From Xanthobacter autotrophicus (GTDB lineage Bacteria > Pseudomonadota > Alphaproteobacteria > Rhizobiales > Xanthobacteraceae), in NCBI RefSeq assembly GCF_005871085.1, contig NZ_VAUP01000015.1, positions 124,001 to 188,000 on the forward strand: a DNA stretch of 64,000 bases. Direction: 5' to 3'. The position numbers and the translations under genes are program-made. The notes under the pieces were generated by a model. The model made no database searches, was not told the origin of the DNA, and worked only from the letters and a program-made list of their open reading frames with translations. This document shows positions 29,875 through 51,569 of the stretch, one piece after another. The stretch's first letter is position 1. Each line of letters opens with the position of its first letter.

Positions 29875-29969
29875 CCGTCATGCCCCGGCTTGACCGGGGC
29901 ATCCATCGTGCCGCCGCGCGCCGGCATCGACGGAAACATGGATCCCCCGGTCAAGCCGGGGGATGACGG
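29875..29969. repeat. Palindromic intergenic repeat element, copy A (tatC-serS gap)
   Basis: Two 32-base arms (29875-29906 and 29938-29969) are inverted repeats that differ at only two positions, around a 31-base spacer. Each arm is itself a hairpin (core CCCCGGCTTGACCGGGG). The two differences form a matched pair, so self-pairing inside each arm is kept (GCCCC/GGGGC in the left arm, TCCCC/GGGGA in the right). No ORF is present. A related copy lies after serS. Confidence 0.85.
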
Positions 29970-30027: not shown

Positions 30028-31581
30028 ATGCACGACATCAAATGGATCCGGGACGAGCCGGACGGCCTCATCACTGCGCTGGTGCGGCGCGGCGGCGGGT
30101 CCGACGAGGCGCGGCGGGATGCCGAGGCGCTGGTGGCAAAGCTGCGCGGCCTTGACGAACAGCGCCGCGCCACCCTGACCCAGCTGGAAACTCTGCTCGC
30201 CCGCCGCAATGCCGCCTCCAAGGAGATCGGCCAGGCCAAGGCCAGGAAGGACGAGGCCACGGCCTCCGCCCTCATGGCCGAGGTGGCGGAGCTGAAGGAG
30301 AAGGTGCCGGCGCTGGAGGCGGAGTCCAAGCGCCTCGACAAGGCGCTGGAGGATGAACTCGCCGCCATCCCCAACGCCCCGCTCGCGGATGTGCCCGATG
30401 GCGCGGACGAGCACGATAATGTGGAGGAGAGCCGCTTCGGCGCGGCGCGCAGCTACGCCTTCACCCCGAAGCAGCATTTCGAGGTAGGCGAAGCCCTCGG
30501 CCAGATGGATTTCGAGACCGCCGCCAAGCTCTCCGGCGCCCGCTTTGTGGTGAACAAGGGGCCGCTGGCCCGGCTGGAGCGCGCGCTGGGGCAGTTCTTC
30601 CTCGATACGCATACGGCGCCCGAGCAGGACGGCATCGGCGGCTATATGGAGGTCAGCCCGCCGCTGCTGGTTCGGGATGAGGCCATGTTTGGCACAGCGC
30701 AACTGCCGAAATTCGAGGAAGATCAATTTTTTACCATGCGATTGGATAGCGTTGACTATCTAGATTTGGTTGAGGAGTTGAAGAAAAAATCGACAAATGA
30801 AATTTATAATTTGGCATGGAAACTAAACTACCAAGCTGCTGGAAACATTCTTGCAGCTATAGATTCCAGAAGAGAACTCGCGACCATCGAAGGTCGTGTA
30901 GATGCTGCTGATGATCTTTGGCTTAGACTTGCAGAGGGATTGGGCAGAGCAGAACGGCGCAAGCAACTCGGCCTCTGGCTCATCCCCACCGCCGAAGTCC
31001 CGCTCACTAACCTCGTCCGCGAGTCCATCCTCTCGGAAGAAGAACTGCCCCTGCGCCTCACCGCCTGCACCCCCTGCTTCCGGGCTGAGGCGGGTGCGGC
31101 GGGGCGGGATACGCGGGGCATGATCCGCCAGCACCAGTTCACCAAGGTGGAACTGGTCTCCATCACCACGCCGGAGAAGTCGGCCGAGGAGCACGAGCGC
31201 ATGCTCGCCTGCGCCGAGGCGGTGCTCAAAAAGCTGGACCTGCATTATCGCGTGGTGACGCTGTGCACCGGCGACATGGGCTTCGCCTCGCAGAAGACCT
31301 ACGACATCGAGGTGTGGCTGCCGGGGCAGGGGGCGTTCCGCGAAATCTCCTCCTGCTCGGTGTGCGGCGATTTTCAGGCCCGGCGCATGAATGCCCGCTA
31401 TCGCCCCGCCGAGGGGAAAGGCCCGCGCTTCGTCCACACCCTGAACGGCTCGGGCGTGGCGGTGGGCCGCGCGCTGGTGGCGGTGCTGGAAACCTACCAG
31501 CAGGAGAACGGCGCCGTCACTGTGCCGGATGTACTCCTGCCCTATATGGGCGGGCTGAAGACCATCGAGAAGCTCAAGTAG
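30028..31581 (+). CDS. serS: Seryl-tRNA synthetase with an AT-rich in-frame insertion
   Basis: The enzyme charges tRNA-Ser (and tRNA-Sec). The start is ATG 30028 ([13 protein letters not shown]); the 62 in-frame codons upstream come from the repeat element. The 517-residue product has the tRNA-binding coiled coil (about 30-110), motif 1 region [20 protein letters not shown], motif 2 [21 protein letters not shown] (Arg352) and motif 3 [20 protein letters not shown] (Arg481). Family members are usually about 425-445 residues. The excess lies between [10 protein letters not shown] (ending 234) and [11 protein letters not shown] (from 318), where 83 residues stand instead of roughly 15-25 (recalled from E. 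coli and Bradyrhizobium). The catalytic residues are intact, so it is probably functional. The gene sits between tatC and surE as usual. Confidence 0.95.
30721..30978 (+). other. AT-rich foreign-looking segment inside serS
   Basis: By hand count 30721-30960 is about 42 % GC (102 of 240) and 30721-30840 about 34 %, in a window that is otherwise strongly GC-rich. Codons rare elsewhere here cluster in it (AGA, ATA, CTA, TTG, AAA, AAT, GAT). It encodes residues 232-317, mostly helix-forming ([19 protein letters not shown], then [20 protein letters not shown]). The frame is open through both junctions. The conserved DQF codons at the left edge already show the AT-rich style, while the right edge fades gradually into native composition. 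Confidence 0.9.
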
Positions 31582-31615: not shown

Positions 31616-31731
31616 CCGTCGTCCCCCGGCTTGACCGGGGGACCCACCCCTCCGCGACACAAGTGACAGACGCCGAAAAGCCTGCGCGTCGGCCCCATGG
31701 ATCCCCCGGTCAAGCCGGGGGATGACGACGG
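31616..31731. repeat. Palindromic intergenic repeat element, copy B (serS-surE gap)
   Basis: This is the second copy of the element found before serS. The left arm (31616-31646) and right arm (31697-31731) are inverted repeats carrying the same core CCCCGGCTTGACCGGGG, around a 50-base spacer unrelated to that of copy A. The left arm lacks two bases present in the right arm. Arms are conserved while the spacers differ, as in REP/BIME-type or MITE-like repeats. Confidence 0.85.
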
Positions 31732-50129: not shown

Positions 50130-50993
50130 TCAGCCGTTCGCGGCGGCGTCGGCCGATGCCGCTGGCGACCGGATATGGGACTCGAAGTGCATGCCGTCGT
50201 AGGCCGGCACGATGCCGTCGGGAAGCCGTGCTTCCAGCGTGGCATAGTCCAGGTCGGTGTGGAGGTTTGTGAGGATCGCGCGCTTCGGTTTCATGAGCGC
50301 CACGTAGTCGAGCGCTTCCTGAAGGGTGAAGTGAGATGGATGGGGCGTCTCGCGCAGCGCGTCGATAATCCACACATCCAGATTGTGCAGCCGCGCCAGG
50401 CTGTTCTCGGAAAGCCCGTTGACGTCGCTGGAATAGGCCACGTCGCCGAAGCGGAACCCGAAGGAATCGATGTCCCCATGGCGCTGGCGGAATGGCAGGG
50501 CGCTGATGGAACCGCCTGCCCCTGCAACCACGATCTCCCGGCCTTCCCGAAAGCGATGCTCTGTGATGATGGGCGGATAGGCGCTGCCGGGCGGCGTGGA
50601 GAAGCAATAGCCGAAGCGTTGATGCAACATGCGGGAGGTATCTTCATCCGCATAAACATCCACCCGGCTGCGATGATGGATGGCCAGTGGACGCAGATCG
50701 TCGATGCCGTGGGTGTGGTCAGCGTGCTCGTGGGTGTAGAGCACGGCGTCGATTTGGGTCACGCCCTCGCCGAGAAGCTGCTCCCGCAGGTCCGGCGAAG
50801 TATCGACGAGAACAGTCGTTTTCCCGTTCGGCCCGAAGCGTTCCACCAGCATGGAGCAGCGACGGCGACGGTTGCGGGGGTTGAGGGGATCGCAGGCGCC
50901 CCACCCCTGCCCCACCCGCGGCACACCGCCGGACGAGCCGCATCCCAGGATGGTAAAGGTCAGGCTTGCGCCGGTTTCGCTGGGCAACGGCAT
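50130..50993 (-). CDS. MBL-fold metallo-hydrolase (PhnP-like)
   Basis: The 287-residue metallo-beta-lactamase-fold enzyme has the metal motif THEHADHTHGID (H88, H90, D92, H93), the opening ILGCGSSGGVPRVGQG, VDTSPDLREQLL, VAYSSDVNGL and a late LTNLHTDLDY histidine strand. This pattern matches phosphodiesterases related to PhnP/RNase Z. In many relatives it follows metG and tatD; here it is alone, so that context clue is missing. ATG 50993 is chosen; the 18 codons upstream are not conserved-looking. Confidence 0.85.
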   Translation of the reverse strand: MPLPSETGASLTFTILGCGSSGGVPRVGQGWGACDPLNPRNRRRRCSMLVERFGPNGKTTVLVDTSPDLREQLLGEGVTQIDAVLYTHEHADHTHGIDDLRPLAIHHRSRVDVYADEDTSRMLHQRFGYCFSTPPGSAYPPIITEHRFREGREIVVAGAGGSISALPFRQRHGDIDSFGFRFGDVAYSSDVNGLSENSLARLHNLDVWIIDALRETPHPSHFTLQEALDYVALMKPKRAILTNLHTDLDYATLEARLPDGIVPAYDGMHFESHIRSPAASADAAANG

Positions 50994-51569
50994 GGCTCTC
51001 GCGACCTCGCTGCGTCTGTTGCTCGGACCATGTGTTGCTCGGACCATGGGTCAGGGCGGAATCGGCGCGCAGCCTGATCCAAATTTGCGCCGGAGTCACA
51101 CCCGAGAGCGCTCAAAATCATTCAGTGCGGCTGAAATTGGGGATTTCAAGCCAGAACCGCGCCGCGAATGACGGGGGTTTGCGCGTGTGACAACCTGCTG
51201 AGGGCTGGACCAGATATTTGAGTCGCGTTCGCCACTTACGGCCCGCGATTCGCTTATTTCTTCAGGTGAAGATCCATCCCCAAGTGCCAAATCTCTACTG
51301 CTCCGGGAGGCCCCGGGCATGATGGAGAGGAAAAGCCCGCTGAGGGCGGCGACGGCTCTGCGCGGGTATCGACGAGTGAAGGAGATCTGCCTTTCGGCGT
51401 CGCCCCGCCCTGCCCCGCACGCGGGAGGGCGTTCCGGGGGCGTGCCCGGCTGAATCGGCAATCATTAGACAGAAACCCATCCGCAATGGGCAGGCCCCAA
51501 CGGGCGCCCCGCCGCCGGATCGCACCGGCGCCGTCTCGACAGGGATGGGATTTAAATTCGGGGTTTGAA
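50994..51569. other. Long non-coding region between MBL gene and tRNA-Pro
   Basis: About 576 bp without an acceptable gene, the longest such stretch in the window. A 121-codon minus-strand frame (51096-51461) has no family features and poor codon character. The region contains a 16-bp tandem duplication (51017-51048) and the sequence downstream of the tRNA. No integrase, att-like repeat of the tRNA end or known ncRNA was recognised. Confidence 0.55.
51017..51048. repeat. 16-bp perfect tandem duplication
   Basis: TGTTGCTCGGACCATG occurs twice head to tail just upstream of the MBL-hydrolase gene start, in its promoter/leader region on the minus strand. Confidence 0.9.

Follow-up and report, generated by a model that had tools for sequence, protein, structure and literature searches.

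Why should a seryl-tRNA synthetase (SerRS) gene, essential and found as a single copy in its genome, carry next to its active site a stop-free stretch of AT-rich DNA that is replaced between sister species? We addressed this question for a 64,000-nucleotide stretch of the Xanthobacter autotrophicus genome (here called the window). Our preferred reading, to which we give a probability of about 0.6, is that the insert is one allele of a cassette whose polymorphism is kept up by antagonistic selection from phages or toxins. Its behavior as an exchanged cassette is highly probable from sequence comparisons; antagonist-driven selection as the cause of the turnover is a tentative proposal.

The serS gene and its insert

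The argument concerns one gene and one segment within it.

30028-31581, + strand: serS, seryl-tRNA synthetase (517 aa; Pfam domains; sole copy found in the genome)
30730-30975, + strand: hypervariable AT-rich insert (residues 235-316, 82 aa, 246 nt; four low-confidence predicted helices)

The serS product is a bacterial class II SerRS, with an N-terminal tRNA-binding coiled coil and a class II core domain. Both Seryl_tRNA_N (PF02403, residues 1-118) and tRNA-synt_2b (PF00587, residues 310-490) match above their Pfam cut-offs, and all 29 PDB sequences matched at E ≤ 1e-20 are SerRS or SerRS-containing. The catalytic motif residues are intact, as the initial annotation had stated of the synthetase core: T321, E323, R352, E354, and R481, which we take to represent TxE and motifs 2 and 3, are among the invariant columns of 47 SerRS. 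A search of the genome itself (G000) returned one serS match at E ≤ 1e-30, and a PF00587 search added two matches, putatively ThrRS and ProRS; the second, normal serS that had been suggested as the mark of a variant paralogue was not among them. Because this is the sole serS found in the genome, the enzyme is presumably active in charging tRNA-Ser with serine.

The AT-rich in-frame insertion that had been reported inside serS is real, and the insert proper covers residues 235-316. It is in frame and stop-free, and it lies after EEDQF and 5' of WLIPTAEV; the earlier count of 83 residues from F234 to LIPTAEV is correct when W317 is included. Insert GC is 0.443 and GC3 is 0.378, compared with 0.68 and 0.85 in the surroundings (0.678 GC for the window overall), and we recovered the low GC originally described (0.438 over 30721-30978 and 0.342 over the first 120 nt). 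The insert scores 0.17 for codon adaptation, and the parts of serS before and after it score 0.74 and 0.75, measured against a reference set of three neighboring genes plus those two serS parts themselves. The idea that low-GC-type DNA entered an essential gene by in-frame exchange is supported. The proposed sliding-window check gave the same picture: the GC of the insert is lower than chance would give in its own genome, as the lowest internal 60-codon GC is 0.37 in serS versus a minimum of 0.48 among 311 other ORFs (filtered ORFs of ≥250 aa from 444 kb; serS fell outside the filtered list and was measured separately). The AT-rich codons begin upstream of the insert, at GAA-GAT-CAA-TTT of EEDQF, so the remark that they cover the conserved DQF holds, and the exchanged tract reaches slightly into the conserved left flank. 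The insert DNA occurs once in its genome.

Hypervariability of the site among relatives

We compared serS across relatives using loci that were best or listed matches and thus no random sample. A family scan of 119 genomes found serS in 113, from which 30 loci were read directly and 40 were fetched by place; a genus scan found serS in 13 of 14 genomes, and a named collection supplied 80 further loci, partly from the same genomes. We parsed 165 of the resulting 173 loci. The other eight comprised two putative other synthetases (L001 and L003), five serS that the pattern had missed and that were read later, and L147, which was not read. Duplicate removal left 147 distinct serS.

Insert-free serS have a loop of 6 to 12 residues at this site, shorter than the 15 to 25 that the initial annotation took as typical. 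The loop is ≤12 aa in 40 of the 147 distinct serS and longer in 107, with a maximum of 97 aa. At least 18 aa are present in 106 of the 147, and BLASTP clustering sorted these inserts into 17 clusters (58 inserts) and 48 singletons. The same clustering gave 12 insert types without detectable relationship among the 13 serS-bearing congeners. The earlier suggestion of imported DNA therefore stands as far as the exchange of low-GC-type DNA is concerned but not as a single import event, as hypervariability at this site is seen throughout the family.

Beyond the family, about 25 aa or more are present in at least 15 of 87 other genomes of the order with a match, from 11 other families, and in at least 3 of 64 other genomes of the class with a match; these counts come from the coordinates of listed matches and exclude matches with an unlisted first half. 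Most species outside the family retain a short loop, and the long insert appears patchy there. A patchy distribution had been predicted, and it emerged when serS was compared across relatives. One Lysobacterales MAG, whose record title names a gammaproteobacterial order, has a 77-aa insert with a GC of 0.71 at the same serS site (L135). Separately, the two serS of genome G003 (L067 and L074) differ at the site, with a 6-aa loop in one and a 97-aa insert in the other; since that genome is listed with 6% contamination, it may be a mixture.

Several of the relatives are metagenome assemblies, and variation of this kind might be produced by errors of assembly, contamination, or binning. We give this explanation a negligible probability. 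The pattern is also present in congeners assembled into one or two contigs (G041, G073, and G123), and named isolates, among them Aquabacter sp. P-9 and Ancylobacter moscoviensis 3C, show it as well. In addition, the frame is open across the site in 165 of 171 serS loci (some representing the same gene), an open frame being required for parsing, and five of the six missed loci were later read as open.

Neighboring genes and repeats

When the genes of the window were compared with those of three congeners, a long replaced segment was seen in serS only, and in all three. Comparable genes numbered 68 in G123, 27 in G073, and 26 in G041, with serS counted twice (two ORF versions). This comparison covered the genes of this stretch alone, and similar replaced sites elsewhere in the genome are possible. 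A gene at 50133-51047 (- strand), metallo-beta-lactamase-like by eye, has an 18-residue stretch in the window that is absent from G123, and it passes the replaced-segment test there.

Two pairs of repeats flank serS.

29877-29967, strand not applicable: two REP-like 22-mers in inverted orientation, upstream of serS
31618-31726, strand not applicable: two REP-like 22-mers in inverted orientation, downstream of serS

This 22-bp REP-like palindromic repeat has 21 copies in its own genome within 2 mismatches, including the 4 that flank serS. Copies lie on both sides of serS in G120 and beside serS in G123 and G124, and three serS-bearing congeners have none.

Replacement of the insert as a unit

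Replacement is mostly all or none. We compared 81 pairs with a core dS of up to 0.6, core identity of ≥0.84, and inserts of ≥13 aa, and found homologous inserts in 13, unrelated inserts in 67, and one intermediate case. Among the 12 pairs with a core dS of <0.3, the inserts are unrelated in 11 and near-identical in one (L007/L008; core DNA identity, 95.6%; core dS, 0.16). The cores of L009 and L040 share 96.1% DNA identity (core dS, 0.13), yet these two serS carry unrelated inserts of 62 and 40 aa. Unrelated inserts also separate L010 from L096 (94.6% core DNA identity) and L006 from L037 (94.0%), and L046 has a 6-aa loop where L096, with a core 93% identical, has 43 aa.

These pairs bear on whether ordinary drift of a fast surface loop could have carried homologous inserts past recognition. 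Loops do outpace cores in evolution, some related inserts are merely 20 to 40% alike, and one pair in 81 is intermediate. However, we consider this explanation very improbable, given near-identical inserts at a dS of 0.16 beside unrelated ones at 0.13, as well as a change of GC3 at the borders. Insert similarity is, moreover, uncorrelated with core similarity, both in insert family A2 (rho, 0.07; P = 0.66; 45 pairs) and in family A3 (rho, -0.40; P = 0.13; 15 pairs), whose members occur in distant genera. For example, insert identity is 0.56 between L072 and L110 at a core identity of 0.71 and 0.28 between L072 and L181 at a core identity of 0.83.

Inheritance of inserts between sister taxa is detectable and weak, because placing the 46 insert types on a tree of 76 cores (75 labeled rows, with some labels joined or divided manually) takes at least 57 changes, compared with 61 to 67 (about 64) in 200 label shuffles. 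Inserts also seem to shrink by deletion, as the L314 insert, which belongs to the same family but comes from another genus, lacks about the first 20 residues of the L016/L097 version.

Borders of the exchanged tract

The tract has a border of a different kind on each side.

30685-30729, + strand: upstream (left) border of the exchanged tract, covering the 15 codons that precede the insert, with AT-rich codons in EEDQF
30976-30999, + strand: sharp right border, TGGCTCATCCCCACCGCCGAAGTC (WLIPTAEV), a 24-mer kept in most congeners

We measured synonymous differences around the insert in 44 pairs with different inserts and 15 pairs with one label, the latter including short-loop pairs. Per five codons, the last 15 codons before the insert differ by 0.32, 0.35, and 0.41 in the different-insert pairs and by 0.21, 0.17, and 0.09 in the one-label pairs. 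Further upstream the two kinds of pair are alike, and at 20 to 30 codons both are high (0.37 and 0.32). Downstream, the first five codons past the insert show unusually little difference, at 0.06 in different-insert versus 0.19 in one-label pairs. An exact copy of the right-border 24-mer is present in 9 of the 13 serS-bearing congeners and a copy with one mismatch in 2, and in the remaining 2 none is found within 3 mismatches; in every congener genome with a match the 24-mer occurs as a single copy. In the family set, its first 17 nt are exact in 37 of 55 long-insert serS versus 5 of 22 shorter-loop serS. GC3 also shifts at the insert borders.

In sum, the cassette is replaced whole while the core stays alike and the frame is kept, with a trace of exchange that decays over the preceding 5 to 15 codons and, on the downstream side, a sharp edge at the W codon. 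This border pattern looks like the trace expected of recombination between serS genes with conserved ends. We infer exchange by recombination from the all-or-none replacement, the trace at the left border, and the decoupling of insert from core similarity; a site-specific mechanism may lie behind it.

Selection, composition, and predicted structure

Related inserts are under purifying selection. In 10 of 15 homologous insert pairs, dN/dS is 0.04 to 0.51 (the other five are saturated in dS and give no estimate), values well below 1 that indicate conservation, with no sign of positive selection. Core dS may be lowered relative to that of the insert by the codon bias of the core. The 80 inserts of ≥35 aa have a composition like that of the enzyme itself except for Cys (0.1% versus 1.3%), which is absent from 75 of them, and 67 of the 80 have a negative net charge. 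Judged by their residues, such inserts thus resemble a folded acidic protein.

An AlphaFold model (47 SerRS rows) retains the hairpin strands at residues 234-237 and 315-318 on either side of the insert. In between it draws four helices (241-252, 256-265, 270-284, and 291-314) at low confidence (block-mean pLDDT, 45 to 73). A pLDDT of 90 is reached by 326 of the 517 residues, and core residues 221-230 and 351-370 are low as well. The cassette sits at a permissive beta-hairpin of SerRS, which presumably lies between motif 1 and the serine-binding TxE loop.

Searches of 67 representative inserts against Pfam, PHROGs, PADLOC, and NCBIfam found no recurring family, each listed match being weak and to a single member. 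The best, Tsi2_fam to the L014 insert, scored 21 bits against a cut-off of 70. We treated these single weak matches to known domains (Tsi2, VbhA, ESAT-6, and DrmC among them) as chance. A PDB search with the window insert and families A2 and A3 gave nothing convincing: up to E 1, the P0002 insert had one match, to a non-SerRS protein (E = 0.08), and matches of A3 to sigma factors, covering about 30 residues at an E of 0.008 or worse, were also taken as chance.

Residence of inserts and the search for a source

Base composition differs between inserts that are shared with a near relative and those that are not. In a set of 48 inserts of ≥20 aa with a near relative, the median GC3 deficit is 0.02 for the 18 shared inserts (range, -0.04 to 0.25), a subset rich in short inserts, and 0.38 for the 30 unshared ones; restricting the set to inserts of ≥35 aa gives medians of 0.055 for the shared (n = 6) and 0.41 for the unshared ones (n = 27). 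The rows are mutually related, which makes test probabilities inexact. The window insert has the largest deficit of the 48, at 0.49. We read this pattern as the arrival of fresh inserts from an AT-rich pool, followed by a rise in GC the longer they stay.

Reservoir searches covered five inserts in all, and no AT-rich source pool was found among the phages, plasmids, viral contigs, and genomes of the order that were searched. Phages, plasmids, and viral contigs contained no match to the window insert, and 396 other genomes of the order gave only two, both at chance level. Nothing was found for an A2 insert in plasmids, phages, and viral contigs, for an A3 insert in plasmids and viral contigs, or for two additional inserts in viral contigs, the viral scans reaching close relatives only. 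Viral contigs do carry serS (14 loci, 13 of them readable), but these are no vector of long inserts, since their readable loops are short, at 5 to 18 aa.

Profile searches of 248 family genomes gave nine strong matches for A2 and five for A3, all within serS. Outside serS there were seven weak A2 matches (E = 0.0006 to 0.042) and nine weak A3 matches (E = 0.0007 to 0.009), the A3 number exceeding the two to three predicted at E 0.01 per genome. The longest ORFs at weak-match loci, read for L186, L315 to L318, L320, and L323 and named by eye with the position of the match inside the ORF unchecked, include one polymerase-IV-like protein at L317, L318, and L320, a chemoreceptor-like protein at L323, and an ABC-transporter-like protein at L186. 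Loci L186 to L192 have no serS motif. Matches of the segment outside serS, which had been anticipated for an imported module, were thus not clear for the window insert or for families A2 and A3.

What drives the turnover

Under the antagonism model, the cassette would be a small, mostly helical folded module near the active site. By analogy with insertion II of eukaryotic SerRS, it would be dispensable for serine charging and would alter what binds there; charging is expected to be unaffected because that insertion, at the same site, is described as having a negligible role in aminoacylation (PMC10817482). With the SerRS surface or docking altered, phage take-over proteins, interbacterial toxins, or other SerRS- or tRNA-binding antagonists would fail; alternatively, the altered surface might let a strain-specific partner bind. 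Rare cassette variants would then be favored, giving steady replacement by unrelated modules. We favor this model because fast module replacement, purifying selection while a module is resident, and an outside pool resemble recombining recognition and conflict proteins. Searches of domain libraries, the PDB, and mobile elements found no antagonist, partner, or donor. More speculatively, the locus could represent an immune- or evasion-type polymorphism inside an essential synthetase, fed by an AT-rich and probably mobile pool, with SerRS as target or sensor.

A serious rival to antagonism is that the hairpin tip simply accepts nearly any short, foldable in-frame DNA, so that the inserts are neutral or mildly selfish passengers with no host function, which are captured, then drift, and are in time displaced through recombination. 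The variation of inserts in sequence and length, the coexistence of long and short loops, and the position of the eukaryotic insertion, described as negligible in aminoacylation (PMC10817482), all agree with such a site. We nevertheless think it rather unlikely: related inserts are under purifying selection and have folded-protein-like compositions, insert families are common to distant genera with clear matches in serS only, none of the other neighboring genes behaves likewise, and turnover at 94 to 96% core likeness is very fast for a neutral passenger.

It is unlikely, too, that the insert is a docking or regulatory module that binds a lineage-specific partner (tRNA, the ribosome, or another enzyme) and changes with it. 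Folded-like acidic inserts would suit that role, and plant and atypical archaeal SerRS are reported to bind partners via the catalytic domain (PMC10817482). A change of housekeeping partner is, however, unexpected between species whose serS cores share 96% identity, and some close relatives have 6 aa only, such as L046 beside L096 with its 43 aa.

Fast turnover is usual in surface or defense proteins and unusual in a core housekeeping enzyme, and here a piece adjoining the active site is replaced between species with the rest of serS up to 96% identical. If conflict drives the turnover, SerRS would be a battlefield in the Hyphomicrobiales and the inserts a catalogue for finding the attacker; if the turnover is neutral, an essential enzyme would offer an extraordinarily permissive insertion site, useful in protein engineering. 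In either case, serS is a poor marker across the insert stretch.

Comparison with known systems

Several familiar sources of in-frame or variable DNA were considered and rejected. The insert DNA is single copy in the genome, unlike a Rickettsia RPE-type palindromic coding repeat, and a mobile repeat is further opposed by a right border without a second copy. No intein family is among the listed matches, and a self-splicing intron does not fit an insert that is in frame, ≤97 aa long, and has codons under purifying selection. A target of a diversity-generating retroelement was rejected on the single insert copy and on types that differ in both length and sequence. Among the matches listed, the titles and abstract openings of the open-access literature described no hypervariable SerRS insert.

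Within SerRS, the nearest counterpart is insertion II of the higher-eukaryote cytosolic enzyme, which corresponds to human G254-N261 and is described as lying close to the active site (PMC10817482). In alignments with human SerRS chains, residues 307-508 of the window protein pair with residues 257-461, so that this insertion occupies the same site in the catalytic domain as the bacterial insert, with the counterpart of LIPTAEV a few residues downstream. By the coordinates G254-N261, insertion II has 8 residues, and it is a lineage feature, whereas inserts of the window type reach 97 aa. Unlike insertion II, the bacterial inserts are mostly mutually unrelated and are replaced between sister species. 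PDB matches of the insert up to E 1 included no SerRS that would suggest homology to insertion II.

The conserved signature indels of aminoacyl-tRNA synthetases are likewise in-frame indels at a fixed site in a conserved enzyme; one report describes, in Borrelia, a 1-aa deletion within serS residues 231-264 (PMC3726837). Such indels are stable within a clade, whereas the serS site changes with almost every species of the genus.

In behavior, the cassette also resembles domain-swapping allelic proteins, namely, HsdS recognition domains, the Myxococcus TraA variable domain, and polymorphic toxin C termini. These combine a variable module with conserved flanks and recombination, and their diversity is kept by conflict or recognition. 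They are, however, defense, surface, or secreted proteins, whereas SerRS is an essential cytosolic enzyme of translation.
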